Positions 7,880 through 59,895 of a stretch of 64,000 nucleotides of DNA are shown piece after piece. Under the pieces are notes generated by a model. That model was not told the origin of the DNA. It ran no database searches and was given only the letters and a program-made list of their open reading frames with translations. Source of the DNA: Dysidea avara (lineage: Eukaryota > Porifera > Demospongiae > Dictyoceratida > Dysideidae); the NCBI RefSeq assembly GCF_963678975.1, contig NC_089279.1, positions 34,849,297-34,913,296 of the forward strand, in the 5' to 3' direction. A program made the position numbers and the translations under genes. Position 1 is the first letter of the stretch. Every line of letters begins with the position of its first letter.

Positions 7880-7881
7880 TG

Positions 7882-14265: not shown

Positions 14266-14582
14266 ATGAGTCTGAATATGTTTGTAAACACTGCTGGCAA
14301 TAAAACATATACTGTCAACATAACAGAGAGAGAGGTTAGTAACTAATTATCATTGTATTGTTAACACTCTGTTTTTGCCAGCTACCAACTATTACAATTC
14401 TGGGACTAAAGAAGAAGATAGGGGACAAAACTGGTGTGCCTCCAAATAAACAGAGATTGGTGACTGGTAATCAACAGCTTACACAATATAGTAATAGCAC
14501 GCTTGTGAAAAACTGTTCTGCAATAAAAGAGATGTGTACAATTCACATGATAGTTTGTTTGAAAGCTGGACAAGATTATTGA
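14266..14582 (+). CDS. Ubiquitin-like domain protein (Ubl family member A)
   Basis: Exon 1 is 14266-14334 (23 codons, MSLNMFVNTAGNKTYT...) and exon 2 is 14382-14582, separated by a 47-nt GT-AG intron in phase 0. The product of about 89 residues has a ubiquitin-like pattern: beta hairpin, helix (TILGLKKKIGDKTGVP), then QRLVTGNQQL and a final strand CTIHMIVCLK. The same two-exon plan recurs at 18468, 33346, 36208 and 40043, which supports the exon limits. It ends soon after the Ubl without a diglycine. A RING2-like relic follows 70 bases downstream, so this is probably a truncated Ubl-RING gene that may or may not still be expressed. Confidence 0.7.
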
Positions 14583-14654
14583 CATGTACTATAGTCAAGT
14601 AGCAACACTTAGAACATGCATCTGGCAGAGATGAAAGAAAGTGATCATACAATG

Positions 14655-14827
14655 GACTGTCCTTCTCTAAGGCAATGCACAAACTGTGGAATCTAACTGA
14701 ACATGCAACAAACCGTAAACATATGGAATGTACAATATGTGCCGAACAATTTTGTTTCATTTGCTTGAAAGACTGGAATGACACCCACCAGTATCAAAGA
14801 TGTAAACCTGCAGACCTCTGTCGCTAA
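14655..14827 (+). pseudogene. RING2-like relic of Ubl-RING family
   Basis: DCPSLRQCTNCGI then a stop, then after a frameshift HMECTICAEQFCFICLKDW and a stop at 14825-14827. It matches the end of the 33346 and 40043 genes, but the Cys at the RBR catalytic position reads Arg and RING1 and IBR are missing. Confidence 0.75.
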
Positions 14828-16124
14828 AGGATACTGAGATTGCACTGTTTATATAACTATAACAGACTTTACATTATTTATCCTATGTCTTACGGTTGTT
14901 ATTTTAATAATTTTAAAAACATGTATAGCATACTTTGTCTTTTGCACAAATTATTACTCCACACTTGTAATCCTTTCCTCTACATTTTCTTTATAAATAT
15001 GTACGGCACAAAGAAACATGTACCGCCGTTAAAGACAAATCTTTTTCAAGGCCTATTCAACATGTGGAGCTTGTACTATCCATTCTTGCGCGGCCAGAAT
15101 GCACACAATTAGATGCAGACTATAGACCTGAACACATCAGTGGATGTATGTAGCAGAGATGTTCACCAGTTTACAATACCCACTTCCTTCTAAACCTTGC
15201 TGAATCTATAACACAGAACAAGTATGTAATCTGTTTACCTTTAGCCAGCATCCCATAATGAAACTGATATATGTTTGGACAAAAGATATGGTACACACTA
15301 TACATATTATAGGCCTGACTTGTCAATAGAAATGTTATCCTGTAAACAGAGAGTCACTTGATACAACTGAAACATGTCTTAGGGTAATTCCCACATTAAA
15401 CTGCTTTTAAAGCTACCAGCCTACCTGGCTTGCTTACCACTTATCAATACACATAAGGTACTTTCCAAACAGAGCAAAACATTTTACAACCACAACACAT
15501 TAGGACCCCAAATACTAAAATTTGACTGGCTCCATACTAGAGCCCAATACACACATTCCAGTTAAATCCTTCCTGAGGCAATGCAAAACATAACGGATAT
15601 GATCCCATAACAGTGGCAACAGGTTGACTAAACAAAGAAGTTATTTACTGGACAAGATGTACGTATCATAATCTACTGGATGCATATTCATGGTTTCTTT
15701 GTTACAAACAATTATTTGAGCATAAAAAACTCAGACCTTGTAGTAGCACCATCACATCACTCAGGCATCACAGCATAGACTTTGAGTTACTAAATTACAC
15801 AGAACCCAGTTAAATCTTTTACTACCATACTTTGGGTAAATAAAAGAATCGATCAATATTATGCATATACAGTGTGACACTGACTATCCTTTTTGCTGAC
15901 TCTGGATACAGAGTACTGACAATTTCATAACACATAGACAATCAGTCATAAAGGTCTAAATACTGCAAGAGCTAAATCAAATATATTTTTATGTTCACTC
16001 CAAAAGAATTTTGCTACAGTAGTTAAATGAAGCCATCATAACCATGAAGATGACTTCATAGAGGTTAGCTAATAAAATGGAGTGTTTGTAGAATTACAAG
16101 TTATTTGCCAACATAGCTATGTCA
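14828..16124. other. Decayed duplication between Ubl copies
   Basis: Segments at 15360-15800 are diverged copies of 17260-17620 (shared ACATGTCTT...GGGT and CCCACATTAAACTG). No gene recognised. Confidence 0.45.
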
Positions 16125-16200
16125 ATATTTGTACTCAGTTAGCAAACTTTAACAGTGAAACTACATACACTACAATACATGATATATGATCTAGATAATA
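16125..16200 (+). pseudogene. Ubl exon 1 relic
   Basis: ATAGCTATGTCAATATTTGTACTCAG followed by TTAGCAAACT and AACAGTGAAACTACATAC matches the start of exon 1 and the downstream intron of the 18468 gene, with most of the exon deleted and the initiator region altered. Confidence 0.55.
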
Positions 16201-16232
16201 ATAATACACTAAGGTTCATGTTCACAGGTAGC

Positions 16233-18467: not shown

Positions 18468-19702
18468 ATGGTTATGACATTATTTGTACAGAGCAGCAAA
18501 AGCAAGAGCTTCACCCTGAACATCACCTATAATCAGGTTAGTGAACTATTAACAGTGAAACTACATACAATACATGATATAATTATGATCTAGATAATAT
18601 TAGACTACAACAAGTTTGATACTGAAATTTGATTGGCTGAAAACGTGGTCTCTAAATCTCGTAGAGCCACGGTCATGTCCAATAGAGACCACGCTCTGAG
18701 GCGATACGAAACACGATAATTACGCGCCTGTAACATTGGCAACGCATGGGCATTTAAATGGCTAGTAACAGCCGTACTGAACTAGAGGGAGGTGTAATGG
18801 GCTTGTTTGTACTAATCAACACTACATTACTTGCTTACAAGCAGCTATCAAGGCACAACAACAGCAACAATGAGTTGTAGTCCACTCGCTGAGTCCAGTA
18901 CTTCGATACATAGCACGCGCCTGTAACATTGGCAACGCATGGGCGTTTAAACGGGTAGCAACAGCCACGTTGTGGTCCCGCCATGTAGGGAGGTGTAGAG
19001 GGCTTGTTTCTAGTAATTAGCCATACATTTCCTATTTACAAGCAGCTGTCAACTCAAGGTACAATAACGAGTTGTAGTCTAAATAAGTTAGACGTCAAGA
19101 ACCACTGGGTTCTACAGGATTTAGAAAACCCTCAGGCCCTTAGTAGCGCCCTCGCTGCGCTCAGGCGCTACAGCCCAGGGCCTTCGAGTTTTCTAAATCC
19201 CGTAGAACCCTGGTTCTTGACGTCTAACTATTATATAGAGTGTACATTTAGAGATAATCTGAGAACATTTTAATGAAGTACTCTGTATATAGAACCTTTA
19301 AGGACTCTAATATTTTCAGTCTCCATTGGTTTAGTGTGTCAATGCAATGTTATCTCTATCTCTAGTGTATTTACTTCAATGTTCTATTTCAAGTGTGTCC
19401 ACTTAATCATATAGTTACAATCATTGACAATACTGGGACTAAAGCAGTTGATCGAGAAGAGGATTAATGCTCCTGTCAACCAAATGAGGATGATAGTAGC
19501 TAGTCAAACAATAACACAAGAGAATGACTACAGTTTAGTCACCAGTTTTCCAATCATAAAGAACTATGCTACCATCCTTATACTGCTCCGTCTAGGTGCC
19601 TACCAGGAGGTCAAGAGAAATATAGCTAAGAATTGGGCATGGACGAAGAAACTGTTACATCATTACAAAACTGTGATTAAATGTCCACTAACACAGCCGT
19701 AG
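18468..19702 (+). CDS. Ubiquitin-like domain protein (Ubl family member B)
   Basis: Exon 1 is 18468-18536 (MVMTLFVQSSKSKSFTLNI...), exon 2 is 19415-19702; both junctions are phase 0. Exon 2 gives TILGLKQLIEKRINAPVNQM, then RMIVASQTIT and YATILILLRL, fitting a degenerate ubiquitin fold. The tail is about 30 residues and basic (KNWAWTKKLLHHYKT), with no RING domain. The 878-nt intron is swollen by two direct repeats and a foldback. Neighbours 14266, 35240 and 36208 are close relatives in the same orientation, so this is part of a tandem array. The frame is intact; whether it is functional without a ligase module is unknown. Confidence 0.65.
18722..19080. repeat. Two tandem copies, about 190-bp period
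   Basis: GCGCCTGTAACATTGGCAAC and the following TACAAGCAGCT and GAGTTGTAGTC blocks occur at 18725-18880 and 18918-19080 in the same orientation. Confidence 0.8.
19083..19233. mobile_element. Foldback element in Ubl intron
   Basis: Arms of about 55 bp begin GTTAGACGTCAAGAACC and are inverted around a GC-rich centre (AGCGCCCTCGCTGCGCTC). Confidence 0.88.
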
Positions 19703-28455: not shown

Positions 28456-29307
28456 CTACTTGATGTAAATTTCTAACTTTTCCACAGCTATATCTTCATC
28501 CTGATGAACATCATTTTTACAGATACGAACTTCAAAATCCTCAGCTACACACACTGGTAGTTTCCTATAGAACCATGGCATCCCAATTTGAGCACAACAT
28601 CCATTGCCAGTACCACAGCCAGTACCATCCCATAAAGGATCTGATAGGTAGTATAATGCAGCTGCACTTCCCACATCTCCAGACTCGCAGTAGTAGTGAT
28701 TTCTCACAAAGTCAGGTGGAGGGGGACCAGGATGAGCAGCACACGGACAGTTACAGCAACCTCCACGATTATAATCATCACTTAAACCAACAGCATAGGT
28801 CCACACATGTTTACGTGGTGATCCTAAAGTGATGGAAATGCCATCAACATATGCATCATCAATGGATTGTATTTTTGCATCAAAGGCATCTGTTCCTCCT
28901 TTCTGGTAACCTTTAGTTTGTCCACAGATGTGTTGATATTCAACTCCCTTCACAAAGAATTGTGCAGAAGCACATCCAACTACATATCCTAAACACAGTC
29001 TCCTGGGAGTGGTGATCTTGTGCCATGTTCCTGGACAATTATCATCTCGATTCATGTCTACATCAACAACTTGCATCCATCCTCCTTCAATACCATCACA
29101 CTTTAGCTTCATGTTGCAAGTGACCTCAAACAGTCCTTCACTAGTTTTTATCCAGTATTGCCCAACACTTCCCCTACTAGTAGGATTACGTTGGTATATC
29201 TCATTACAAGAAGCAGCAGAATTGGCCTTGCTTTTACCAAGTAAGATGTCTTCATTGTTAGCTGAGGCAGAAACAAACAACAGTAGTAGGATAAGGCACT
29301 TCTCCAT
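28456..29307 (-). CDS. Secreted fibrinogen-like (FReD-type) protein
   Basis: One intact exon of 283 codons. Residues 1-16 are a signal peptide (KCLILLLLFVSASA). The mature part starts with SCNEIYQRNPTSRGSVGQYW and continues EVTCNMKLKCDGIEGGWMQV, the cysteine-rich beginning typical of fibrinogen-related domains, followed by the PGTWHKI, CLGYVVGCASAQFF, DGISITLGSPRKHVWTYAVG, SDPLWDGTGC and CCAQIGMPWF blocks. I recall this extended type as abundant in sponges and cnidarians. There are about 20 Cys and a CCNCPC cluster, expected to form disulfides outside the cell. No coiled coil or membrane segment. A lectin-like or matrix role is inference. A decayed copy lies just downstream. Confidence 0.82.
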   Translation of the reverse strand: MEKCLILLLLFVSASANNEDILLGKSKANSAASCNEIYQRNPTSRGSVGQYWIKTSEGLFEVTCNMKLKCDGIEGGWMQVVDVDMNRDDNCPGTWHKITTPRRLCLGYVVGCASAQFFVKGVEYQHICGQTKGYQKGGTDAFDAKIQSIDDAYVDGISITLGSPRKHVWTYAVGLSDDYNRGGCCNCPCAAHPGPPPPDFVRNHYYCESGDVGSAAALYYLSDPLWDGTGCGTGNGCCAQIGMPWFYRKLPVCVAEDFEVRICKNDVHQDEDIAVEKLEIYIK

Positions 29308-32300
29308 GGTTACTGGTACTGACTACAGAAGTTTAATTTGCACTTCACTAGCTGCATCGTGCTGCATTTATAGGTTTGCTAACAGGATGTTTTTCACTTA
29401 GTGGACAGTGCAACAACAACATAGTGGATTTCCCGCACTCACCTCATGTGTTCATAGTAATTCAAACACTAACTTGACAACAAACTTGATTCAAACACAT
29501 AATATTTAATATATTTTTATGTATACACAGCTGCCATGCACGTAACCATTATAACAGGATGTTATCAGATATAGAGTAAACTAAAAATTCCCATGTTTAC
29601 CACCTCTCAAACGTGGGAATATCCTTCAGTTGAATAAAAATTTTGTTTTAATCTCTAAAGAATACTTCACTTCCACAGCACATAAGTCACATGTTATGTA
29701 GTTATGAAATGTCAGAAGTTGAAGGGATTTCTTTATAGGCCTATTTTCTGTTTCACCTTATTACTAGTATAGCTAGTTGTCTTAAGTCTCCAATTTCTGT
29801 CTATTAGGTTAGGTAATCCAAACACTGCAGCACAAGTTGCTGTAAGAGCAACAGTATAGGATAAGGATACTTCATTATCTCCACTTGTCTTGATCAGTTT
29901 TTAAATTACTGTAACAATGTATAGCAAGTCCACTCCAGTTCATAATTACACTATGTGATGATAATTCTACACATGGTGGTGTGCCATGTGGCCCAAGCCA
30001 GCACGCTGCACCATGGGTATAATATTGGTAGGAAGAAAGAAAACATGATAATTATCATGCATGCATGCATACATATTATTTACATAGTTCCATAATCTCT
30101 TATCTAAATGGAACACTATAAATTAATAGACTGAAGCAGGGATTAAATGTCTACTATGACTTCCCTTGTTTCATTATTTTTTTGTAATCCTTAAAATTTT
30201 TATTTTCCTTATGTTACTTTCTGGAGCATAATTATGACTGGTAAGCCTGCACATACTGCATTGAAAGAAAGAATGGTGCCAGACATATCGTAATTAATTA
30301 ATTTTACATCTGAATACACCCCAACTATTATGCTTTGTTTTCTGCTGTGCATGTTCAGCCTGTTACATGTGCACAGCACAAAGAACTGAACAAGAAGTGC
30401 CTCTGCAATCAATCCAATCACTACAGAAAATAAAGACAATTCACAGGGAAGCCACAATGCGCAAACAAGAATTGACACCTTACACAAAAGAAATGGGACA
30501 CAAATTAAGACTGATTTCTAAAGGGGGTGGAGGTCTGATGGCATACTCCCCTAGGAAAATTTTGAAACAGCTGTGACTATATTGAATTTGAAAGAAATGA
30601 CTGCAACCTAGAAGTAATTTAAGGAAATAGCAAGCTGAAAAGACTACGAACTAGTGAACTATGTACGTATGTAGTAGTTATGTACAAGCCGATTTTTTAG
30701 AGTAAACTGTTGTTTTATATTATTATTAGGTTTTAAGGCAATTTTATTTTAATAGTGAACGGTTAAAAAAATTAAAGCCATAACTATAAGTTGCCAGAAG
30801 GTTACATGCAAGCACATTTAGCTTAGTCATTTGTAAACCCAGGATTGTAAGACAACAAAAGTGGACTGCAAAATCGAAAATATTTGAACTGAAACAACTA
30901 TCTCAATGTTGAAATTTTGGTCAATCCCTAAACTGAAAGAGAGGTAAGATTCATAACACATAGTATATGTATAACTTTGACTTTATACTTTTCTTTGCTA
31001 TTTTAGCCTGGCTTTTACAACTATCCCAATCATCATTTACAACCAGCCAGTAGTCTAGCTAACTAGTCCCCCTTTTAGCCTCTGTCCCCTGTACTGGTGC
31101 TTTACCACACCAATCCTCTCTTTACTTTAGGACAATCATGACATTATAGAGGCTATAATCAGACTTAATTATTTATTAAGGGTGATTTGTGGTCCAACTA
31201 TATAATTATATAGTTAACTCCTTAATGTCATTATGTGTAAATTGTTGGGATATCAGGCAAGCATAACACAATAATTATAATAGAATGTAGCATTCAGTGT
31301 ATTCACTTCAAAAATATTATACTTGTATAGATGATTATATGTAGGCTGCTTGCTTGGCTATATCAATGCACATGCGTGCACTAGTCAAAGTTCAGATTTT
31401 GTTATAGTTTGAATTTTTAATATAGCTGTATATGCAGGAGTGCATTAAAATGCCATGTTGTGCAGCTCAGGTTGTGGTACTTACACATTCCTGACTGTAT
31501 AATTATTACATGTACGTAAAGTTGCATCATTAATCATTGCAGTAAAAAATTTAATTTCTTACCACAATATGCAAATATCAGGCAAGTAAACTGTTAAGAT
31601 ATTTTTGTGGTTGCTTGTGGTTAGTGGTGTGCTGTCTACTCATTATTCCAAGAACCAAATTAGGAACTTTTTGCATGCCTTTGCAATTCCCCTGAGACAC
31701 TAAACATGTGATTATGACCTTGCATCTCACAGGAAGAATGTTAGGCAACTCTATTAGCATGTGTAGATACCATAATAATAATAATAAACAATTATGCAGG
31801 CTTTTCACCTTGATTCTATATATCTCTATCAGTAGCAAATAGTATGCCTCTCACAGCTGTTACATTTACTATGTAGCAAGAAAAATGCTTGTGTGGATTA
31901 TGCATTAACTGATAAGAACCTTCATACAAACTGTTGAAGCTGTCGTGCATATAAAATTGTATTGTTATTAGTCAGTCATGTGATTATTATTCCAAGTAGT
32001 GGAATGCATTGTAAACATCTTAAGAGAAGGATGGCTGGATTCTTGGAAGACACAGTTTCCCTTCAAGTGTATTTACAATAATTGTTCATATTTGGTGAAA
32101 TTTATTGCACTAATGATATGTGGTTCCAAGGATCATCATCATCATCTCTGTGAGTACTTGGACAACTGTTAGCCCTGCTTATTTTAAGAAAACTGGATTA
32201 GCACTACGGTTTGAATAAGTAATCACTGTGCATATTATCATTATTATTATAACACTATGGTTCCAGTTTCTGTTTATATCAAGCAGTGATAATGATAACA

Positions 32301-33345: not shown

Positions 33346-34408
33346 ATGATGTCAGGCATGACCACTATAAAAGTAACTGTTGACATTGTAAAACCATCAT
33401 TTACCAAAATACCTTTGAACTTGTTTGTCACTACTGCTAACAATAAAACATACACTATTCCAATACTTGACAGAGAAGTAAGTCAAAGCCTCTTAGTTGT
33501 ACTATGCTATACTCTCTTCTTTATTACTACTAGCTGCAAACGCTGACTGTGTTAGGGTTAAAGAAGAAAATAGAAGACAAAACTGGTGTTCCTCCAGAAG
33601 AGCAGAGACTGGTAGTTGGTGACGAACAATTAATACATGAAGGCAAACTTATCAAAGATTATCCAGCAATTAAACCCCAGTGTACAATTCACTTGATTAT
33701 CCGCTTGCCAGGTGGACAGGACTGCGTAGGATGCTTTGGACCATCAAACCTTGTTTCACCATGCAGATGTCATACTCCATACTGCAATGAATGATTGTAT
33801 TATGCGGCACTGCCAAAGTATGGCTGATAAAAAACAAAGCACAATGACTTGCTCAACCTGCCATGAGAAATGGGACTTGATTAAAATTCAACGACTATCA
33901 GGTATCAGTGATACACAGTTTAATAAAATTGCCAAGCAGATGTCCCAAAATTTTGTCAACACGCAACCAGGTATTCAAGAGTGTCCAGGCTGCCAGAACT
34001 ATTGTGAACGTCAAGATAAAACAAAGAGCAGAGTTTACTGCCGTTTGTGTTCCAGAGCAGGCAAGCCAGCAGAGTATTGTTTCCAGTGCTCCCTCCCATG
34101 GAGAAATTCAAGCAGCAACACATACTGTGGAAACCCAAACTGCAAATCATCCAATCCACTTTCTTTGCTTCCTTTGGCAGAGTATAAAAAAAATTGGTAC
34201 AATAGACAATTGCCCTTCATTGAGGTTGTGCCCAAAATGTGGAATTCCAATTGAACACACAAGACACTGCAAGCGTATGGAATGCGCAATATGTGCCAAA
34301 GAATTCTGTTTTATTTGTCTCATTGACTGGAAAAGCGATACTAATAATCATTATTTTGTTGAATGCAGACCAGCTCCAATACAGACATTTGTTCCTGGAG
34401 GAAAATGA
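33346..34408 (+). pseudogene. Ubl-RING1-IBR-RING2 (RBR-type E3 ligase) with two frameshifts
   Basis: Exon 1 is 33346-33477, exon 2 starts at 33534 after a 56-nt intron. The Ubl (LTVLGLKKKIEDKTGVP, QRLVVGDEQLIHEG) is followed by RING1 (CVGCFGPSNLVSPCRC... CSTCHEKW), a cysteine-rich IBR (CPGCQNYC ... CRLC ... CFQCSLPW ... CGNPNC) and RING2 (LCPKCGIPIEHTRHCKRMEC, CFICLIDW). The HCKRM Cys sits where RBR ligases carry the catalytic cysteine. The frame breaks twice: a tandem AATG (33786-33789 and 33790-33793) shifts RING1 out of frame, and a run of eight A (34186-34193) adds one base before RING2. The first is unlikely to be a homopolymer error; the second could be. The order resembles Parkin without RING0. 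The homologue at 40043 is intact. Confidence 0.8.
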
Positions 34409-34661
34409 ATAAAATTGCAAATAAGAACACTTTAACTATGTAGTACAAATGTTGATGTGGTTGTTAAATTGTGTACAATTAGTAGCATGTCTTACACTGT
34501 ACTGGTTTATTCATGCATGCACACATGTATATAAAATTTTGTGAACTTTATAACTACAGTGTGTATTATATATTATAATGTTTATTATTACAATATTATT
34601 GGAAGATACAATAAATGGCACACACATGTGTATTATATTTTTAAATGCAATTGTACAAAGG

Positions 34662-34697
<36 letters not shown>

Positions 34698-35239
34698 ATG
34701 CCAGGTGAGGTAAGAAATGATATGGGAAGATAGAATTGTTAGCCTAAATAGAAACTTCCTGAAGGTTGCACTACGGCAGACTGTCATAGTGGATTTGGAA
34801 GCTACTGTGCATATATTTTGCCAAATTTCTAAAAATGATCAATGATTATCATTCATAGAAAGATCCTCCTACAACAACTATACTCAAATATGGTAAAGAT
34901 CATAGGTCATGTTGACTCAAGGCCGTTCTTTACACTGGGGGGTCACGGGTAATATTTGGGTATTAGGATTGTTAATGAGAATGTATACTATACAAAGAAA
35001 CCAGTGCCCTCAAAAAGTATGGCCATCAAACAAAACACTATATAAGGCAACAAGTATATTAATCAGCATGTGACATTGAAGGTCATGATATAATGCAACT
35101 GTATAGATCAGATGATTCTAGCATCATGCATCTTTTGGCAAATAACACAACTCTATTAAATCTCTTACTTAATTCTCTGAATGATGATGTAATAGTTGAG
35201 TAGATTAGTATAAAGTGTTTGACTATAGAACCATTCAAA
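34409..35239. other. Intergenic
   Basis: No gene. Contains a TA dinucleotide run (34667-34694) and a hAT-like G-rich fragment near 34920. Confidence 0.5.
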
Positions 35240-35302
35240 ATGGCTATGACCTTGTTTGTACAGAGCAATAGTACCACCCAGACCATCACTTACAGCCAGC
35301 AG
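35240..35302 (+). pseudogene. Orphan Ubl exon 1 (copy E)
   Basis: MAMTLFVQSNSTTQTITYSQQ followed by GTATAT. Nearly identical to the exon at 36208 and lying in a 970-bp tandem duplication with shared flanks (GAATGATGATGTAATA upstream, ATAGCAGAACTT downstream). No second exon before the next copy. Confidence 0.6.
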
Positions 35303-35356
35303 GTATATACTACTTCATAGCAGAACTTAGGACACCTTATAGACCTCAACAGTGTT

Positions 35357-35932
35357 AGAACTTAAGGATTCGGTGGCATCAACTCTACCTGAGTTTGGTG
35401 TTACTATGCATGGCAAGGCGTTTTACAGCATCCTTGGCAAATGACCATGGTGATGTTGGCTTCTTTTTGGGGGTCTCACCGATGTTGTCAGCAAAAACAT
35501 CCAGGAGACTGCTATCCATATCGTCATTAATTTAATGCTACTTGTGTGGTGGAGAAAAAATGTAAATAATAAAAATAATTTTAATACTGTAGTAACTAGT
35601 GGTAACTATTATGATATGTGTTTAGAGGTAAATGGTGAGAGAGAAGATGGTAGACGGAACTCTGTGACATTGTTCAGAATTCCAGGAGACTCTGACAATA
35701 GTATTGTCAATAGTCAGGTAACTAAGAACTTAATACTAGTCACTAACATGACAAGCATTAATGACGATATGGATAGCAGTCTCCTGGATGTTTCTGCTGA
35801 CATCATCGGTGAGACCCCCAAAAAGAAGCCAACATCACCACGGTCATTTGCCAAGGACGTTGTAAAATGCCTTACCATGGTAACACCAAACTCAGATAGA
35901 GTTGATGTCGCCGAATCCTTAAGTCTCATTTA
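35357..35932. mobile_element. Long inverted repeat with about 175-bp arms
   Basis: Left arm 35357-35531 and right arm 35757-35932 are inverted copies (GACTTAAGGATTCGG-type end, TTTGCCAAGGA, AGTCTCCTGGATG). The right arm is open in the plus frame and forms the C-terminal half of a 132-codon ORF (35535-35935) ending in SDRVDVAESLSLI; the left arm is slightly degraded. Probably a mobile element or a hairpin duplication of an exon; it lies between the two copies of Ubl exon 1. Confidence 0.75.
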
Positions 35933-36207
35933 AAAAGCATAATCTATTATGCTGTTATGAACTTATTCCCTAACACATGGAGATACCACAATGCGTTTAC
36001 TACAATACATTACTATACGGTGTATGTATTTCACAGTGGCAGGTCATCATTTTACTATAGCTTTATAGATCACATGCAGCATTCTTCAAAGCATCAAATG
36101 TTTATACTGCTAATGAAACCACTGAGCTAATTCCCAGAATGATGATGTAATATTAGTTGAACAGATAAATATAGCAACTGGCAACTTATAAAATCATTTC
36201 TTTCAAA

Positions 36208-36590
36208 ATGGCTATGACCTTGTTTGTACAGAGCAATAGTACCAAGAGTTTCACCCAGATCATCACTTACAGCCAAGTTAGCTACAGGTACATACTAGCT
36301 ACTTTATAGCAGAACTTCTCTATTGAGGACACCTTAGGCCTCAAAACAGAGGGATGGTCTAATCTAATGTAAAAGTATTGCAGGCATGACCGTTTAAATG
36401 TTACTTAAAATAGAGACAATCCTTGTCCATATTGGGACTGAAGCAGTTACTTGAGAAGAGAATTGGTGTCTCTGCCAACCAGATGAGACTGATAGTAACT
36501 GGTGAGACAATAACAGAAGAGAATGATCACAGAATGGTTAAGAGTTATGAAATCATTAAAGACCGGGCTACTGTCCTTATACTATTCTGA
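36208..36590 (+). pseudogene. Ubl gene copy F, ended by a nonsense codon
   Basis: Exon 1 is 36208-36276 and exon 2 starts at 36414 (QSLSILGLKQLLEKRIGVSA). The last strand reads ATVLILF, then TGA at 36588-36590, then LPGGN in the same frame; relatives have Arg there (RLPGG), so this looks like CGA to TGA. The donor after exon 1 is a weak GTTAGC. Confidence 0.7.
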
Positions 36591-37439
36591 CTACCAGGAG
36601 GAAATGGTAATGAAAACATTTAACATTAATTTTGCATCAGATTGTGTTGTAACAGTATACACATGTAGCTTAGTCCATGTAACACATGCGACATGTCATA
36701 CAATAATTCCCACCGTATCATAGTGTTGTTATGTTTCGATACAGATACGAAAACTTGTTTATTATTCATTGAGCATGCATATAATTCAATTCAACGTCTA
36801 GTTAACTTATGAGAGCATTTGTGATATTCCATGCATGCATTAGTGTATGTTATAGCGGATGCTGTTCTTGAAGTATCCAGCCAAACAAACTTGCATGAGT
36901 TTCTACATATGCAGCAAACCACATATGGTCACACAAAACTATTAGTACTACTGCATCTAATATTATGTCCCTGCATGTCATTTAAATTAAACTGTATACC
37001 AACATACAACAAGGAATTGTTTTGAAGTGTACATGGAAGCACTTTCTTTTGTAATTTAGCTATAGAAAGACAATATACAGTAGTATACACACTCTTGTAA
37101 CACAAATGTTATACACTATCAGCAGAACTTCAGTTACATACCTAAACCTCTTATATGAACGTTAGTCAAATTAGTGAACTTTAAGTAACTGAAATCGATT
37201 CAGATGTGGTTAACGATCAATCAAATACCCTGATAGAACATAATATATTTTACACAGGATGCAGTAAATCCTGAATCCTGATAACCACAAAGTTTGAGGA
37301 ATACATTTTCCCAGAATGACAACTGAGAAGATATGCAATGCTAAAAATGACACTACTCTTATTATGAGTATTAGTTAATACAGTCTATACTACTGACATT
37401 AACTGTACAAGAGATATATTATGTTACATCATGAAGGAT

Positions 37440-37545
37440 ATAGTTCATTTTATGGTCAATAGCATGTCACACATTCTACTCCTTTCACTGCCTTGGAAAC
37501 AAGCAGGGTCAGGTGACCAAATAGATTGTGTAAATCTCAACTACT
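37440..37545 (-). pseudogene. Relic of the 46722-46862 transmembrane exon
   Basis: TGGTCAATAGCATGT, CACTGCC...GGAAACAAGCAGGGTCAGG and GACCAAATAGATTGTGTAAA match the 46722 exon and its flank; the frame is broken. Confidence 0.55.
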
Positions 37546-38112
37546 CTAACGCAACAACCCCCTCTCATACCAACACTCCTGTATCATTCACTCAAAATAC
37601 ACCACAGGATTTCTGTCTTGTACATAATCCTCCCTTAGTTTGTAATGATCCTTGATGAATCACCACCTAATTGACATCATAATAGTACAAGTAAAATAAA
37701 TAGTGCAATAACATTGATGAAAATAATGTATTGAAAATTGAACATGTGAAAGTAACCTAGCTCAAAAGAAAAGATTTTCTATGTGAGCATTTGCATATAA
37801 AGTAGGGCGATTACTCTCACTGACCTATCCCTTTTCCTTAAGTTCCACCCTTTCTCAAATTGTGAACAATGTGCTGTTACACATATAACTGGTCCTAATT
37901 CACACACAAACACCTAAACTGGTTTACCTTGTGTGAGCATGCAAAGAATGCATCTCAACTCTGGGAGTGACAGACAGCTCTATGCACCATTGCCTCACAT
38001 AAGACTTACATTGTGAGTGGACCACACTTTTTGAACAGTCTACCTGATCAGTGGCAGCTTCACTCACTCACCATCTATAGTGATAGCATACAACTACTGT
38101 AAACATCTTCAA

Positions 38113-38367
38113 TATGTGACCTGGCCTACGAAAATAGGGCATGTGGGAACAAACTACACCCCACTACATACCATCTCATATCTCAGTACTGGGATAGACT
38201 ATTTTTGTTCTGTAATATGTATTTTAAAGCCAACGAAATGTTTGATAAGTGCTGAGAATTTCATGGCAAAACAATAATGGAATACAAAGTTATGATGCAT
38301 CAAAATTTGAAAAAGTAGGCAATTTTTATGTGCCAACATGCCCTATTTTCGCAGGCCCAGTCACATA
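38113..38367. mobile_element. TATGTGACC MITE
   Basis: TIRs of about 33 bp (TATGTGACCTGGCCTACGAA, AATAGGGCATGT) with complementary right end. Same family as 32951 and 43650. Confidence 0.88.
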
Positions 38368-38667
38368 TATGGTTAGTTCTTAAGTAACTATATACATGCA
38401 GTAGTCTCTATGCCTTTAACTTTGCTAGCCACAAGCCTCATGAATAATGCATTTGTTCTTGCCTGTAACAAGCTGTGCCTTTAACTAAACAGTTCTAGCA
38501 ATAACAGAGCAATCACAGCCTTGCCAAGTGATTTGTATAACTGAAGTTATTAAGGGCTCAGGTGTACATAAACCATGAAATACAACAACGTGATCATGGC
38601 AAACAAATTCAGTGAATAACTCAGACTAGGTGATTGGTGGTGCCTGGAAGTTAGTATATTATATAGT

Positions 38668-38776
38668 TATACAACGGCCACAAGTGCTCTGCCTGATATA
38701 AACGCACGAGCCTGAGGGCCGTCAGGCCCGAAGGCAAGTGCGTTTATACAGGCAGAGCATGAGTGCACGTTGTTAT
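38668..38776. mobile_element. GC-centred foldback
   Basis: Arms (ACAACGGCCACAAGTGCTCT, GCCTGATATAAACGCACG) are inverted around GAGGGCCGTCAGGCCCGAAG. It resembles the GGCTTCGCC centres in the 54-kb palindrome in design. Confidence 0.8.
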
Positions 38777-39681
38777 GAACCACTCACCTAATAGGTGGGG
38801 AGAGTCTCACAAGACAGCTGTAGCACTTATAAAGGCCAGGTTTCTAACATCGATTGTGGGTAACCAAGCCAGACGTTGCGATGACGTTCCCCCTGCAGTA
38901 CTGCAGCCACCTGAGATATTGAAAGCTAGTACGCTATGGGTTATATCACTAACCTGCATTCGCTGTTTGACTCTCATCATGTAGTGCTCAGCATGCCAGT
39001 GTGCCATATAGACTAAGCACCAGACTGATCACCAGTGATTCTCTCGAGTGAAAAAAAACAGCTAAATAGACGGTTTAAGTAAACAAAACCTAACTACTAA
39101 ACGATACTAGTCTAATTCTTACTATTCAAATTGACACTAGCCTAGAGGGCTATGTGTGTAATAGTGCACACTTGCCACATTCCAAACAGAACACACTAAA
39201 AAAATCCCCAGCACTTTTTAGTAGTAAACAACCCAAAATACATGACAGTTTTGTAAGGCTTTCATGATGCCAGCACAGCAACAACAATCAACAACACTTT
39301 ACAAATTGAACACTTCACAAATTTATACTTACCGGTATTGTAAGTATTACTAACTAAATTTACTGTAAGAATTAACAGTTTACTGTAAGAATTAACATAT
39401 AGTGGCAGACCATTTATCGAAGAAAAAGACACATGTTCTTCTCTATCAACTATATGCACTTTCAAGCAAATATTTAAAATCAAACATGATGACAATTTAG
39501 TGGTTGAAGTCCAGCAAATTTTCCTTCCCACATAAACAGTATAATATACGTAGATGATAAGATCTGGTAAGAGTTTAAGTAAAGTGCCACCTGTAATCCC
39601 ATGATACCATGCAGTGCTAAAACCAAATGAACTGTTCAGCTTCCTGTTGGGGATATTAATTATATGGTTTCTGCCCCTATA

Positions 39682-39992
39682 CAGGTGCGTACGCAGGAAT
39701 TTTGAAAAGGGGTTTCCACTACAGCCAAGTGACTGTTATATTAGAGTAGTTTATATTGCCTGACTGCTTTAATAGAGTATCTCGATTTTTTCACCAAAAT
39801 CATAAGCTATAAGTGTTGCTATTGTGTGAGAAACTATTATTTAACTAAGATAAAAGTTTGCAATGTGTCCTGTTCCATGATAGATTCCAGATTCTGGAAA
39901 CCTGAAGCTTCAATTTCTTAATGTTTTAAGTAGTGTGTAAAATCCAAAGGGGTTTCCTGAAACCCCTGGAAACCCCCCTAGGTACGCCCCTG
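39682..39992. mobile_element. hAT-like MITE
   Basis: CAGGTGCGTACGCAGGAATT at the left and AGGTACGCCCCTG at the right, with GGGGTTTCC/GGAAACCCC subterminal repeats. Two inverse copies of the ACTCTAATAGARCAGTCA motif lie inside. Confidence 0.75.
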
Positions 39993-40042
39993 CTATATAA
40001 GATATTGTGTGGAAAGTTCACATTATTTTTTGTCTTCCCAAG

Positions 40043-41254
40043 ATGTACACGACGATGTTCGTACACTCTGAGGCTAGTAAAACTTTCAGTATTTTAATAA
40101 GTAAAAATGAGGTGAGCTAAAGATGTTATAAGTAGTCAGTGATGGTGTCACTGTTTGTTTAATAGCTAATGGAATTAAATGTGTTTGAACTAAAACAGAA
40201 ATTGGTTGTTTAGGCCACTTTTTGCCAGAAACAATTGCTCAAATGGCTACTGCTTGTGAAGTGCCAAAGAAAACCATAAGATCCTTGTTTGAGCAGGCAG
40301 CTCGCATTGCTGTGTCCTGTTCTTACAGAATTTTTAATTCTAGAGCCTCCCCGGGCTGGGATCTTTTAGACCACCTTAGGTAAACTTTAAGTATTACATA
40401 TATGTAGATATAGTTTTTTTTGTTTTGTTTTTTTGTGTATTGTAATTTAATTTACCTTTAGTTAATGTAAGTCTTGCCAGGGCTCCTGTACTGATCCATC
40501 AGCACATGGTACCCCTGTGTCTAGGCCCCTGTATGCTTGTAATGTATATTTTGTCTTAATCATTAAGACGTTTATTTTCTTTCTCTCAAAACTACAACAA
40601 AGAATTGGAATTCCATCAGACAAGCAGACAGTATCATTTGCTGGCAAACCATTAATAGATGATGATGAAAAAGTGGAAAATCTTATCACAACAAGCAATT
40701 GGTACACAATCGACGTGAATCACATGCTGAAAGGTGGAGGAAAGTGTAGATTTTGTCTTGATGATACAACAACATTTTCAGCACCCTGCAAGTGTCAATT
40801 CTGCTCCAACTGTTTTTTCTACTATTGTGACCATATAGCCAGTAAGGGGAACACCACTATAACATGTCCTAGATGTGCAGAGGAGTGGGATTTGAATGCT
40901 ATTCAAAACACTTCCATCATCAGTGACACTCAGTTTAGACAGCTATCAGAGAAACTGTCACAAAACCATATCAAGTCACATGTGGCTGATCAGGAGTGTG
41001 ATTACACACAGCTGCTTGATTTGCTGTCTAAAGCAAAGAAGACAACGATTGATGGGATACCCAATTGTCCCTCAATAAGATTGTGCCCATCTTGTGGTAC
41101 AGGAATACAACATCATGAGGGCAGTTGTAAACGCATGATGTGCCAAACATGTCATAAACAATCCTGCTTTGTCTGTCTAACTGATTGGAGGTACCATACT
41201 AATTGCACATGCACACCTGCTCCAATACAGACTTCTGTTCCTCGTAGAAAATAA
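40043..41254 (+). CDS. Ubl-RING1-RING2 protein, putative E3 ligase (intact)
   Basis: Exon 1 is 40043-40111 (MYTTMFVHSEASKTFSI...), exon 2 is 40568-41254; phase 0, GTGAGC donor. The 251-residue product has a Ubl (about 1-78), RING1 (C83-C126: CRFC, CKCQFCSNC, CPRC) and RING2 (C196-C226: LCPSCGTGIQHHEGSCKRMM, CQTCHKQSCFVC). Cys210 in GSCKRMM occupies the RBR catalytic position, although the usual His two residues later is Arg. The region between the RINGs (about 127-190) has no IBR cysteine set, unlike the relative at 33346. The expected role is ubiquitin transfer through a thioester on Cys210; that is inference. It is the only family member here with an unbroken frame through both RINGs. Confidence 0.82.
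40189..40383 (+). other. Open frame inside the intron of the 40043 gene
   Basis: 64 codons ending ...SRASPGWDLLDHLR. The composition is protein-like (PETIAQMATACEVPKKTIRS), with a possible helical bundle or HTH look, but no family is recognised. It could be an exon captured from another gene. Confidence 0.25.
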
Positions 41255-43649: not shown

Positions 43650-43892
43650 TATGTGACCAGATTTGCGAAAAGGGGTCTTCCGCACACATCCAAATCTATG
43701 ATCTTGGAAGACCATAACTAGGTGCTCAAGATACCTATTAGCCTGACAATTTGTCCATCAATTAAGCTATGTTGGTGCTCACTACTGACCAAATTTCAGG
43801 TGAGTATCCTTTTCCAATGTGAAGTTATGAGTCATCAAAGTTGGTACATTGTATGTGTGTGGAAGACCCCTTTTCGCAAATCCAGTCACATA
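43650..43892. mobile_element. TATGTGACC MITE inside RING2 relic
   Basis: TIRs of about 36 bp (TATGTGACCAGATTTGCGAA, AAGGGGTCTTCC) flanked by TA. It directly adjoins the RING2 relic at its DWKS end. Confidence 0.9.
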
Positions 43893-43894
43893 TT

Positions 43895-44037
43895 GGTGAG
43901 TGGATTTCCAGTCTACCAGGCAAATAAAACAAAATTGTTTAGCACAGATTTCACATTCCATGTGCTTGCACCTTGATTCATGTTCAATCAACATATCACA
44001 CTTTATGCACAACTACCTCAGAGAGGGACAACCTTGA
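43895..44037 (-). pseudogene. RING2 relic on the opposite strand
   Basis: The minus strand reads GCPSLR, a TAG, then LCIKCDMLIEHESRCKHMEC and CEICAKQFCFICLVDWKS, a clear match to the RING2 of the 33346 gene. The Cys at the catalytic position is kept. Cut off by the MITE. Confidence 0.78.
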
Positions 44038-44052
44038 TAAAGTCTATTGTTT

Positions 44053-44161
44053 GTGGGTGCTGATTGGTGAAGCCATTCACTACTGAGCAACATACTTTGT
44101 AATACAATCGTCATAGCGCCCTAAAGTGTAAGAAGAAAATAGTTTCACCAATCAGCACCCA
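44053..44161. mobile_element. Short palindromic MITE
   Basis: GTGGGTGCTGATTGGTGAA and its complement bound about 110 bases. Confidence 0.75.
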
Positions 44162-46862: not shown

Positions 46863-47984
46863 CTGTAATAACACATGATAACACACAATAGGACTGATAT
46901 GGGTATTACTGTTTTACTGCATGTTAGAGAAGCACAAACAGTTTAGCTAGAATAAACTTGACATCATCAGCACCATGATATTGAGGAACCAATATACAGG
47001 TGTCCATGAAGTTACAGTGAGCCTTTCTTATCCAAACACCAATAGAGTCTCAAGTAATGGTAAAAGTGTTTAGATAAGTGAAGTGCTTTGAACCCATACA
47101 TTTATATACAAAGCTCTGTAGAAATACTCTAATAGAACATACACCTGTACTTAAAATACTCTAATAGAACAGTCATCTCCTATACAGTCGAAACGCAACC
47201 GTCAAAAAATACACTTTATTACGCGTATTTAGTTGTTTTCCCGCGAAGAAACAAGCGATTCTTCCGGTAGAACACCGTCTGACTACAAGCGCTTGTAGCT
47301 GCCAGATGCAACGTTCGTTCCTGTTTGCACTGGGGGTCACGCAACAACAAGTCACTGGTCTCTCCCACAGCAACCAAATTCGACAGGTGCAGTAAGTTAG
47401 CAACGAGCTACAAAGCACTGAACAAAGTTGGTGAGTAATGACAAGGTGGTTTTGAGGTGTGGGTACAATTTGTTTCAAGCCATATTAGTGTTGCTAATTG
47501 ATTTGCACAACTAGACAAAAGCCCAAACTTGATAATTATGCTGTAAAAAGTTGTGCACTTTGGCTGCTGTTTACACATACAGTAAGATGACAAATAGCAT
47601 TTTTACACACTTTTTAAAATCAACAATTTCTAAAACAGTTATCTGGTGGAGACTTCTTGTGCCAGAATACTGCTGCCACTACTCCGAGTTGACCACAGAG
47701 ATGAAAGTTTGTACCATCAAATTCAGCAATAACTTGAAACTGCTTGGGGTACAGCCATCTTCAAGGACTCCATTCTTACTGTGTCCAGGGTAAATCCCAC
47801 ATAATACTGCTCCTGTGGTGGAGATACACAGAGGCCTGGTCATCCATTACAGTCCAAATCCTGTAATAGTTTCAAAGTACATCAAAGATACAACTGGATG
47901 TACTAGCCGTTAGAATGTAGTATTACTAAATGCGAGGTAAATTGATCAAAAAAAAAAAAATCACACTAACACCGACCAACTTAC

Positions 47985-50107
47985 CAAGGCCACTTTCACC
48001 TATCCAAGTCATTGTTACTTCAGAAGGGCCTTTTAATTCCAAAACTAAGTTATCATGGTACGATACTGCATCTGGTACAATCAGTTTGTTCTGGCAGCTT
48101 TTACAAACCAAGGTTACCTGTACAATACAAACGTCACAAGTACACATGAGTACAATACAGTTTGTTACACTACAGCAGCAATGAAAAAACTTCCGTGACA
48201 TTTCCCACATACATACATACATGCTACAAAAGTACATTTTACACCATCAGAATCCAACAAATACAATTCTCAGCGAATTCAGAGTTTAGAAGACAACAAT
48301 GCCCATCATACTAAATCAGGGGGTGCTAACAGGAACAAAAATTTGTAAAGCAGAGACTCCTAAAAGAGATACCGTATGACAAGAAAAATTGATGAATCTA
48401 CATTTCAGCAGCTTTGGTAAATTAAATGTCCTCAAAAATCAAGAAATTATATATCTAAACATACTTTTAAAGGTATTTATAATTTAAAATTTCTTATGGT
48501 AATTATCCATTTCAAGTAACTATCATTATTTCCAGCAGTGATTACAAACTTCAAGGAGTTATTTGTATTATTATATTATATATACAGTGGAACCTCAACG
48601 CCCCAAATTAAGGACACAATAAAAAAACCTCCCTAATAAGGACAAAAAATTTGGTCCCAACAGGTCTGGTTAATACATTTTTACCTCTGTTTTAACCTCT
48701 AAAAGAGGAAAACCTCTATATTACAGCAAAAAAGTGGCCAAAAATTCTGGGTCCCAAAATGTCCGTAATAGAGAGGTTCCACTGTAGTAGCTCCGTGCAA
48801 TTATGTACTGGTAAAGCACCATTGTGAAACACATTTAAAATGCAACTACAGCTAGTCTAAATAAAGATTGTAAAAAAATTCAGGTTACCGTGGGACAATA
48901 TTTAAGTCCACATAACATACAGCAATGTTCTAACTTGCCAATATTTGCTGTGAGCAATGGGAAGCCCTTACCATTGGATGTGAAATCACAAGTTGCTGAA
49001 TCCAGCTGCACTGCAAGAGTCTGACCTAGTAGAAGAGGTGGTAACTGATGATTTATTTTTAATATGTACACCACTGTGTGAAACTAACATAGCAGTAACG
49101 ATTATTATTTTGAAACTACTGTAACACAAGAAATTTTTGTGGGATAAAAAGATTGTATGGATTTTGCAGGCATCTTATCTACAAAATTTTATCATAGATA
49201 ATGTAGGGAGATGTCTTTCTCATAGTTTTATGCTTGTTACGAGTCCAGACTATCTCACTAACTCAACTTTGTTTCTTCATGTATTATCTTGTTAGTTTCC
49301 TTATCACTTTTACATTGGGCGAGTGTTATCAAATCATGGTGGCATGCAGCCAGTTTGTTTCAAACTTCATCGTTGTGCATGGTTCCGCAGGTATAGCACC
49401 AATATTTTTTTGTGGCACTATTTCTAAGCACCAAGACAAGGTATAAGAATTTTTTCAGTATTAACTAAATGATTAAAGATTATATTTGTGTAAACTGAGG
49501 CTGATACAGTTGACTACTGAACCAGTAACGAAGATTGTCCATAATGATGTCACTGTTGCGAATCTTTACTTGTACTTGATTTTACAGTCCATGTTCAAAA
49601 GGTGTGGAACAACTGAGACATTTTCACAATTGAGAGATCTATATCTGAGCCACAAAAATTTCTTTCAAAAAAGTTACTTTTACATTTTGGCAATCCACAA
49701 AAGTTGTTTAACACCTTATGGCACTGTGGTGTATGGTTTATTGTGTATAACATGATACTGAATAACAACCTCTTCTATATTAACGGAGTACAAATTCGTT
49801 TCACAAATGTGTACAGTTTCATACAACTACTACACGTGCTCCATACAAACCTTATCACTTTCGTTGACTCAGATTTTGTGCACTCTTTTTCGTTTGTCCA
49901 CAGCAAAGTGAAATCGGGAGCAGTAAAATTCTTGTTCAATTCTAACACTGAAATACTCCCAACTCACACGCTTAAAGATTAAATAAACAGGATAATTATC
50001 TTCATAAATCATCTCTTCAAGTGTTTTTATTCGAAAATACGCCAGAAATTTACTGGTTGAACGCCATTTCTCTCGTCCGCGTGACCTGTCGAAAACGCCA
50101 TTTTGAA
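47985..50107 (-). CDS. Unidentified multi-exon gene with zinc-ribbon-like Cys pairs
   Basis: Putative first exon at 50107 (MAFSTGHADERNGVQP, donor GTAAAT) behind a CAAAATGGCG context; an exon of about 48890-49045 (LGQTLAVQLDSATCDFTSNG ... CCMLCGLKYCPT) that ends in phase 0 before GTAACC, and an exon 47985-48118 starting VTLVCKSCQNKLIVPDAV and ending WIGESGL before GTAAGT. The CMLC and CKSC pairs would make a four-Cys zinc ribbon followed by beta strands, reminiscent of the zinc-bearing OB fold at the C terminus of RPA1-like or SHLD2-like proteins; that is a guess. Linkage of the first exon is also uncertain. Confidence 0.35.
48594..48785. mobile_element. Mariner-type MITE
   Basis: TACAGTGGAACCTC and GAGGTTCCACTGTA ends with GGACA/GTCC subterminal repeats, the classic mariner MITE layout, next to TA. 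Confidence 0.88.
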
Positions 50108-50170
50108 CTTCTTGTAAATTGCGCGTGCAACTAAAATCGCCCGTTTTTTGACGGTTGCGTTTCGACTGTA

Positions 50171-53100: not shown

Positions 53101-53557
53101 AGAACATGCGCACGTCGACCAGTTATTACAACAAATTCCAATAAACCACAAATGCCAACTTTATCAAATAACAAGTTATAAATGAAGTTCTGAACAAAAG
53201 AAAAGCTCTTGTTCCTTTTCTTTACACACTGGGACACCTTCCTGTTACTTGTGGAGTTGCCAAGCCTGTTCTTCAATAGTTCACTCTATTGTCACTCTTG
53301 GGCACCCAGATGATCTTTTTCGTGACCATTTTCAAATGAAACAAGCTGTTTCTTGGCTAATTTCTTTGGCGCAAAACACAGCCGCCTAACATGGATACTT
53401 TGAGTATGTGAGTATGCATAATATTGCCAATTATGTTGTAACAGCCGCATGTGGTTATATGGGTTGTCCCTTGAATGGCTTCAAAAACCTGCTAGCACCC
53501 TTAACAAAAACTTGTAATACTAATTTGATTGACTAAAATAGTGTGGTGTGTTTCTAT
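50171..53557. other. Intergenic with repeats
   Basis: No gene recognised. Contains the MITE at 50801, a partial relative of the palindrome at 52200-52310, two direct copies of CGCCATTTGCAGTACCA (52365-52470), and a stretch at 52900-53200 resembling the 58890 repeat in phrasing (TTTGGTAGAGATCCG). Confidence 0.4.
50801..51010. mobile_element. TACCATATAGCCTAAATATTTC MITE, copy 2
   Basis: Same ends as 24265 with the interior in opposite orientation. Confidence 0.82.
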
Positions 53558-54717
53558 TATAATCCAACAACTGAATGTGTTACTGTATAATACTCTCAAT
53601 AGCAGCTTGATGTATTATATTGATATACGTCAAGCGATTAGCCAATAGGATTAGTATTACACTTGTTTGTCAAGGTCCCTTGACAAAAATCTATAATACT
53701 AATTTGATTGGCTAGAATAGTGTGGTGTGTTTCTATTAGAAGTAAATGTCCGACTTGAAAACTATTGCTACCATAGTGATAGATGCCCCAAGGTATGACA
53801 CAACACATGGTTGCTTAGCAACGGTTGCTAAGTAACCGTTGTAAGGCAAAACTCATTTTGAGACCATAGCAACGGTTGCCAGGCAACGGTTGCTAAGTGT
53901 GATTGGTCTTTTGCAGTGGTTATTTTTGAATTTCTGTTGCCTAGTAACAGTTGCTATGGTTGTCAGATTAATTTGCAATAGGACGGATGGATGTGGTATT
54001 CGGGATTAATAGTTCTCGCATTGTAAACAGGAAGGAAATAGTGCTCGGCTTCGCCTTGCACTATTTTACTCCTTCCTGTTTACAATGCTCGCACTATTAA
54101 TCCCAAATACCACAACCATCCATCCTATTACATATACGTATATGTAATAGGATGGATGGCTGTGGTATTCGAGATTAATAGTGCGAGCATTGTAAACAGG
54201 AAGGAGTAAAATAGTGCGAGGCGAAGCCGAGCACTATTTCCTTCCTGTTTACAATGCGAGAACTATTAATCCCGAATACCAGAGCCATCTGTCCTATTGC
54301 AAATTAATCCGACAACCATAGCAACTGTTACTAGGCAACAGAAATTCAATAAATAACCACCACAAAGGATCAATCACACTTAGCAACCGTTGCCTAGCAA
54401 CTGTTGCTATTGTCTCAAAATGACTTTTACCTTAGCAACGGTTACCTAGCAACCGTTGCTAGGCAACCATATTGTTGTTATGCCTTGGGCATGTATCACT
54501 GTGGTAACAATAGTTGTCAAGTAGGACACTTACTTCTAATATAAACACACCACACTATTTTAGCCAATCAAATTAGTATTATAGATTTTTGTCAAGCGAC
54601 ATTGACAAACAATTGTAATACTAATTCTATTGGCTAATCGCTTGACGTATTTCAATATAATACGTCAAGGTGCCATTGAGAGTATTATACAGTAACACAT
54701 TCAGATGTTGGATTAGA
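53558..54717. repeat. Large nested palindrome, about 580-bp arms
   Basis: The arms meet without spacer at CATATACGTATATG (centre 54137/54138). Each arm contains its own hairpin of about 150 bp (53966-54126 and 54148-54302) built on GTAAACAGGAAGGA stems around GGCTTCGCC, and several TAGCAACGGTTGCTA palindromes. Outer parts carry ACTGTATAATACTCTCAATA and TAATACTAAT blocks. A truncated third arm follows at 54717-54840 in direct orientation, and a partial copy lies at 52200-52310. No ORF; probably a composite of foldback elements. Confidence 0.88.
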
Positions 54718-59415: not shown

Positions 59416-59786
59416 AGTTCCATGACCTATTGCGGGATGAGGGAAGGGAACCACAATTGAACAGTCCACCTGATCAGTAGCAATATTTGGTAACTTCATT
59501 TACCACCTGCAGTGATAATATACAGCATTATATACAGCTCCAACATGTAGCTGTGCATTTTTTGCGCTACCACTTGGTAGCTGACTATTTGGGACCATAC
59601 ACAAGTACACAATACATACGTACAAGCCTCATATTGCAACAATCTTTACTGAAAAAATTAACAGCCTAGCTAAAGGTGTACAGAAGCTGTTCAAGATGTC
59701 CAGTGTTTGGGCTACAACAAAAACAGTTAGAAAGAAATTTGCTAACATGTTCTATGTACCGCACATATATTAAATAGTGATACGGA

Positions 59787-59895
59787 TTCCATCAGACAAG
59801 CAAAAGTGTCATTTGCAGGTCAACCATTAACAAATGACAATGAAATGATGCGTTCGACAAGCAGACATTATCCAGACAATACACGTAATGTCTGA
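59787..59895 (+). pseudogene. Ubl relic related to the 40043 gene
   Basis: GATTCCATCAGACAAGCA and CATTTGCAGGTCAACCATTA match the Ubl of the 40043 gene (ATTCCATCAGACAAGCAGAC, CATTTGCTGGCAAACCATTA), with a one-base loss and a stop. Confidence 0.7.

Follow-up and report, generated by a model that had tools for sequence, protein, structure and literature searches.

In ligases of the RING1-IBR-RING2 (RBR) type, an E2 held on RING1 passes ubiquitin to a cysteine in RING2, from which it reaches the substrate (PMC3305615, available part), and RBR ligases have stayed structurally much alike since the emergence of animals (PMC3087547, available part). Besides the RBR, which its N-terminal ubiquitin-like domain (Ubl) inhibits, Parkin has a RING0 and a small helical element termed REP (PMC5264512, available part). 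We analysed a 64,000-nucleotide stretch of the Dysidea avara genome (C8:34849297-34913296; hereafter the window) that carries copies and relics of genes for an N-terminal Ubl followed by an RBR. The host genome comprises 550.8 Mb in 108 contigs and has genes with introns; C-numbers denote its contigs, L-numbers denote loci in it outside the window, and copies in the window are named by position. We consider it likely that these genes form a multigene family of RBR-type E3 ligases in which the Ubl is joined closely to RING1 through a conserved Gly-Gly, with the window as a decaying part of a cluster.

Intact members were found outside the window. L010, 14 kb past it, encodes 317 residues in two exons (3977-4057 and 4114-4983, locus numbering) separated by an intron of 56 bases. 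At C12:16.71-16.79 Mb we read five copies and found four of them open, namely L022, L023, L024a and L024b; L022, L024a and L024b have an additional intron between RING1 and IBR. All five genes share a phase-0 intron inside the Ubl, and their introns follow the GT-AG rule. They confirm the full plan, Ubl-RING1-IBR-RING2, proposed in a first-pass annotation of the window, although copy 33346 itself is not open and carries two frameshifts. A search of the whole genome with the L010 exon-2 protein, with 47 out of 47 candidates scored, gave 26 matching stretches on C5, C6, C8, C9 and C12, and no match over most of C12:16.718-16.775 Mb. Two of the three C5 matches were read, and one of the four at C8:9.99-10.04 Mb. 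Four further open exon-2 frames (one on C9, two on C5 and one on C6) have Ubl, RING1 region, IBR and RING2; in Pfam, all four matched IBR, and three out of four matched ubiquitin, below its cut-off. The predicted L024a and L024b proteins have CaaX-like C-termini, CTVM and CIVL (L024 positions 3495 and 8813), which we take to resemble the lipidation motif; this suggests that these two C12 members may be lipid-anchored ligases.

Profile searches agreed with the RBR assignment. With a threshold of E 0.1, Pfam IBR was matched by all five complete models and ubiquitin by four of them, some of these matches falling under Pfam's own cut-offs (IBR and RING for L023). Reading through the breaks of 33346 gave matches to ubiquitin (2.3e-12) and IBR (9.4e-10), in line with the domains first assigned to it. 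A profile of the RBR part, built from seven rows including two window copies, matched ARIH2 at 7e-11 over positions 3-211 of 227, with RING1, IBR and RING2 in that order. Among solved structures, the Ubl was nearest ubiquitin, and nearly all of the best 60 of 352 and of 312 matches were ubiquitin or ubiquitin fusions. The RING2 catalytic cysteine was present in nine out of nine open members. An AlphaFold2 model of L023 exon 2, which starts after the first 23 Ubl residues and was made with 16 family rows, had a predicted local distance difference test score (pLDDT) of 86.8 and a predicted TM-score (pTM) of 0.48, superseding an earlier model with a pLDDT of 60. With this model, Foldseek placed HHARI first (7.9e-9) and Parkin second (1.7e-8), followed by ARIH2, HOIL-1, RNF216 and HOIP; superposing the Ubl on ubiquitin gave 1.3-2.4 A in five rows, each spanning 56-58 columns.

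Several observations weigh against this assignment. Direct Pfam support for RING1 came from one main case only (L023, 3.7e-4), under the cut-off, as was the IBR match of L023 (0.0027), and the intact L010 had no Pfam ubiquitin match. Both RING1 C-x2-C pairs tested were absent from all four C5, C6 and C9 frames but present in five out of five C8 and C12 members; E2 binding in the former is therefore doubtful, and this branch may lack the usual mode of E2 recruitment. Two positions after the catalytic cysteine, four out of nine open members have His. Exon 1 was located for one (L031) of the four C5, C6 and C9 frames within the 700 bases inspected, and it is missing from the L023 fold model. Global TM-scores of the RBR fold matches were low (0.16-0.38) and domain placement was not predicted; the model thus supports the domains and not their arrangement. 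The tree includes a long 40043 row and an L033 row filled to less than half. In it, the C12 copies formed no single resolved clade; three C8 rows grouped together (100/99), L024a paired with L024b (98/98), and C6 joined the two C5 rows (100/100).

Within the window, a six-frame sweep with family-built profiles detected five Ubl exon-2 copies (14388, 19424, 33540, 36423 and 40583) and RBR pieces at 33790-34399, 40742-41248, 43890-44060 (minus strand) and 14616-14815, with no further Ubl or RBR signal below E 0.01. The only run of N lies at 13937-14136. The eight Ubl copies or relics named in the first-pass annotation are real: by BLASTN, eight out of eight matched another window copy. The matches included 14252-14575 with 33396-33721 (65%, E 6e-14), 16042-16203 with 18397-18602 in two pieces (80% and 85%, E 5e-18 and 3e-14), 19411-19584 with 36410-36583 (75%, E 7e-28), 35170-35349 with 36128-36344 (72%, E 1e-29) and 59786-59845 with 40610-40670 (84%, E 1e-11). 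At the protein level, the larger copies matched strongly, and exon 1 of 40043 matched other copies weakly (E 0.002-0.017). Of the eight, 16125, 35240 and 59787 are fragments (Table 1). RING2 sequence occurs in four places, as described earlier (34193-34405, 41054-41251, 14616-14815 and 43902-44036 on the minus strand), and its catalytic cysteine is kept at 33346, 40043 and 43902 and lost at 14266. Assembly duplicates are an unlikely source of the copies because these share one contig at 65-85% identity; moreover, sisters carry different disabling mutations.

Table 1. Ubl and RBR features of the window, with the upstream motif
Feature	Position	Strand	Details
Ubl-only gene, 89 residues (14266)	14266..14579	+	Exon 1 14266-14334, intron 47 nt, exon 2 14382-14579, TGA 14580
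RING2 relic, frame broken, catalytic Cys replaced	14616..14815	+	3' of the 14266 Ubl gene
Relic of 18468 type (16125)	16042..16203	+	Upstream region, exon 1 start and intron; 80% and 85% to 18397-18602
Ubl gene with unrelated tail, 118 residues (18468)	18468..19699	+	Exon 1 18468-18536, intron 878 nt, exon 2 19415-19699
Ubl-RING1-IBR-RING2 copy, disabled (33346)	33346..34408	+	Exon 1 33346-33477, intron 56 nt, exon 2 from 33534
33346 frameshift 1	33789..33796	+	4-base duplication inside RING1; not in sister copy L015
33346 frameshift 2	34186..34193	+	A run between IBR and RING2; not in L015; could be a sequencing error
Exon 1 only (35240)	35240..35302	+	Followed by inverted repeat 35409-35531 / 35757-35879
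Ubl relic (36208)	36208..36602	+	Exon 1 36208-36276, exon 2 36414-36602, TGA at about 36588 in last Ubl strand
40043 exon 1 and first Ubl exon-2 piece	40043..40201	+	Exon 1 40043-40111, exon-2 piece from about 40166
Insertion within Ubl exon 2 of 40043, about 386 bases	40202..40587	+	Not in sister copy in L017
40043 open frame: remaining Ubl, RING1, RING2	40568..41254	+	No IBR; catalytic Cys kept
RING2 relic with stop, catalytic Cys kept	43902..44036	-	
Ubl exon-2 fragment of 40043 type, about 60 bases (59787)	59786..59845	+	Found by BLASTN; protein signal not significant (E 6.9)
TGATGYMA	Upstream of 14266, 18468, 33346, 35240, 36208; L024 near 1891		

Further inspection showed that most of these copies are disabled or reduced. 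Exon 2 of 33346 is spread over three frames, with the Ubl and first half of RING1 at 33534-33791, the remainder of RING1 together with the IBR at 33790-34188, and RING2 at 34193-34405. Its sister, L015, lies inverted about 95 kb downstream (85% over 1.2 kb); it has neither break and carries a stop and a one-base deletion of its own. Introns are ruled out as the cause of the 33346 breaks, L015 being continuous at both places. Copy 40043 does lack the IBR, as first reported, and has in addition the insert in its Ubl exon. In its later part, RING2-type sequence scored 4.3e-6 with the IBR model, and ubiquitin was matched at 3.8e-4, short of the cut-off. An old intron was rejected as the origin of the insert, which is missing from the L017 sister, itself broken, and showed no clean splice frame by eye. 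Copy 14266 is truncated, and the RING2 sequence left there is a relic. The Ubl frames of 14266 and 18468 are open and match Pfam ubiquitin (7.5e-8 and 1.7e-4, the latter below the cut-off); both are Ubl-only, 18468 with its unrelated tail, and 36208 is truncated by its stop. In the C8 cluster, one (L010) out of eight RBR-bearing copies read is intact, the others being 14266, 33346, 40043, 43902, L015 and two in L017.

The idea of removable modules fared less well in the window, where most of the changes are disabling ones, but the Ubl-RING2 form recurs at C8:10.04 Mb. There L033, one of four adjacent RING2 matches, has a frame of Ubl plus RING2 without RING1 and IBR, two modules that appear to have been lost here for a second time. 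On visual inspection, two frames upstream in L033 (751-1113 and 1070-1354) resemble additional Ubl units; for 751-1113, Pfam gave no ubiquitin match.

The earlier proposal of a clustered birth-and-death family with module loss held up, as both duplication and decay are evident. Pieces from 27-58 kb of the window have counterparts 86-109 kb downstream (69-99% identity, partly inverted), which show the route by which copies spread. Window 47233-50168 shares 98.5-98.9% identity with L016/L017 at a distance of about 96 kb, above the neighbouring duplicated pieces (78-95%), which suggests recent duplication or conversion.

Over whole stretches, the pairwise ratio of nonsynonymous to synonymous substitution rates (dN/dS) was 0.22-0.33 at dS below 1.3 and below 0.35 wherever finite, pairs with larger or infinite dS carrying little information. 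We obtained 0.33 (0.163/0.499) for L024a and L024b, 0.22 (0.068/0.307, over 256 codons) for 33346 and L015, 0.23 for the Ubls of 14266 and 33346 (0.28/1.24) and of 18468 and 36208, and 0.24 for RING2 of 33346 and 40043. Because 33346 and L015 are both disabled, their value of 0.22 indicates that the loss was recent. As judged from these substitutions, the copies evolved mostly under constraint and were disabled recently, a history of birth and death that is not in itself evidence of an arms race.

The first-pass annotation had suggested immune or conflict-type evolution, in which the ligases would be under positive selection. Clustered turnover and the separate disabling of sister copies fit this suggestion, as does a 25-codon RING1 block of 33346 and L015 with a dN/dS of 0.92 (2 synonymous and 9 nonsynonymous differences). 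So does a cAMP response element (CRE)-like motif, TGATGYMA, picked after looking, which occurs within 160 bases before the ATG in five out of seven window copies and in six out of ten copies tested; its sites lie 33-131 bases before the ATG, where 0.05 are expected per 160 bases, in copies that are mutually related. However, the whole-stretch ratios speak for constraint, and the 0.92 block belongs to a gene disabled in both copies. We regard immune or conflict-driven ligases under positive selection as rather unlikely.

The feature that sets the family apart is the end of its Ubl. We aligned 11 Ubl exon-2 segments, hand-chosen from this one genome (ten from open frames, plus 33346), and the sole columns identical in 11 out of 11 were the two glycines at the position of the ubiquitin C-terminal Gly-Gly. 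Eight out of 11 have Arg at the position that aligns with what we take to be Arg72 of ubiquitin. Gly-Gly occurs in 14 out of 16 tabulated Ubl copies and is lost in 14266 and 18468; the preceding residue is P, H, S, V or K and never Arg. RING1 follows the Gly-Gly after a linker of 2-22 residues. The invariance fits a Ubl captured not long ago from a ubiquitin gene, a hinge, or a deubiquitinase cut site.

If it were a cut site, each chain could comprise a Ubl modifier and its own ligase, with deubiquitinases cutting after the Gly-Gly to free a conjugatable Ubl and an RBR ligase. The invariant glycines, the frequent Arg at the Arg72 position and the closeness of the Ubl to ubiquitin among solved structures are all consistent with such processing, but the lack of Arg before the Gly-Gly and the loss of Gly-Gly from two copies argue against it, as does the hand-picked, single-genome sample; the Gly-Gly may instead be left over from capture or serve as a hinge. 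We consider this alternative quite improbable. More doubtful still is a bolder version, in which every intact gene would be an expanded conjugation cassette (Ubl modifier, Gly-Gly cleavage site and dedicated RBR ligase in one chain), the Ubl-only copies 14266 and 18468 would be decoys or non-conjugated forms, and the Ubl-RING2 form at C8:10.04 Mb would be transfer-only.

That the family is dead, with every copy in the region a neutral relic, is very improbable: seven out of eight RBR-bearing C8-cluster copies read are disabled or truncated, as such a reading would have it, but genes are open at L010 and on C12, and a dN/dS of 0.22 over 256 codons separates two disabled sisters.

Under the interpretation that we favour, a Ubl-RBR ligase family, intact members would most likely move ubiquitin from an E2 bound to RING1 onto the RING2 cysteine and then to the substrate. 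By analogy with Parkin, the Ubl could mimic ubiquitin in cis, keeping the RBR closed or docking it to a partner. Copies would have spread by DNA duplication, introns and upstream regions included, and most of those in the window would now be disabled or cut down to the Ubl. The family thus appears from its sequences to be a variant of the RBR ligases, with chemistry that is ordinary as far as can be told and an invariant Gly-Gly as its unusual feature. A Ubl with Gly-Gly fused onto an RBR, in clusters that expand and decay, would give RBR regulation, or even a private modifier, a further way to evolve; if the Gly-Gly is merely a hinge, this would be an ordinary expanded ligase family.

Other features were noted in the window and genome. 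An F-box and leucine-rich-repeat gene lies at 5989-8212 on the minus strand (F-box-like, 2.1e-8; leucine-rich-repeat matches under the cut-off); it has a 91-93% inverted copy upstream in L019/L020 and is a second duplicated ubiquitin-system gene beside the Ubl-RBR cluster. An open frame at 62890-63873 (minus strand) matched a Ulp1-type C48 peptidase (4.8e-5) and a PHD finger (7.5e-4, under the cut-off). Ubiquitin-family matches in the genome number at least 145 (150 of 184 candidates scored), with large arrays at C13:10.07-10.34, C10:5.80-5.89, C7:12.02-12.09, C4:41.87-42.02 and C9:16.03-16.11 Mb. An open frame of 288 residues at 28456-29322 (minus strand), secreted-looking by eye, has a 95% copy in L015 and was unmatched in Pfam at a threshold of E 1. 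Long inverted repeats at 53557-54718 (232 and 215 bases, 92% and 96% complementary) are probably non-autonomous transposable elements.

Wider searches returned little. Viral contigs scanned with the 33346 RBR read-through contained no relative, an NCBIfam scan gave only Rad23-type and chance-level matches, and a literature search that mostly did not reach subscription papers listed no account of a Ubl-RBR family lacking RING0. Similar uncharacterised proteins, with a Ubl ending in -PGG and then an RBR, may occur in fish and cnidarians and would lower the novelty of the family.

The family shares features with four kinds of known protein. Ubiquitin precursors (ubiquitin-eL40, ubiquitin-eS31 and polyubiquitin), which gave the best Ubl matches, likewise have a ubiquitin fold ending in Gly-Gly and then another domain; they differ in that the domain fused here is an RBR ligase and the residue before the Gly-Gly is not Arg. 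HOIL-1 (RBCK1) is an RBR protein with a Ubl and was among the RBR fold matches, but it carries an NZF between Ubl and RBR, and no NZF turned up in Pfam scans of the family.

Parkin resembles the family in having an N-terminal Ubl and then an RBR, in its RBR fold and in the RING2 sequence of 33346; the family differs in lacking RING0, in its short linker, in the Gly-Gly and in a Ubl nearest ubiquitin. Pfam scans of the family models gave no RING0-type match, and there is no room for RING0 because the linker is too short. PF17976 (printed zf-RING_12), which we take to be the Parkin RING0 model, had seven matches at four loci in the genome, three on C2 and one on C11, none at a family locus; each lies 1.4-4.9 kb from a same-strand ubiquitin-family match, and these Ubl-RING0 genes are presumably this genome's Parkins. 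Least probable of all is that the family consists of divergent Parkin duplicates minus RING0: the domain order, a Parkin fold match close to that of HHARI, and Parkin RING2 as the best solved match of the 33346 RBR read-through alone (9.3e-5, vs 2.9e-4 for ARIH2) favour it, but the family profile met Parkin through RING2 only (1.3e-4, vs three domains of ARIH2), the L023 RBR alone matched Parkin RING2 at E 0.43, none of the best 60 of 352 and of 312 Ubl matches was named Parkin, and linker, Pfam scans and separate RING0 loci all oppose it. Membership of Parkin was rejected, and the Parkin likeness first noted stands for domain order minus RING0, with kinship beyond that unsupported.

Ariadne-type ligases share the RING1-IBR-RING2 order and the RING2 catalytic cysteine, and they supplied both the best family-profile match (ARIH2) and the best fold match (HHARI, also ARIH1). 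Unlike them, the family has an N-terminal Ubl, and an Ariadne-type domain did not turn up in the Pfam scans. As far as these comparisons reach, the family is Parkin-like mainly in domain order, with an RBR profile nearest ARIH2 and a Ubl nearest ubiquitin.

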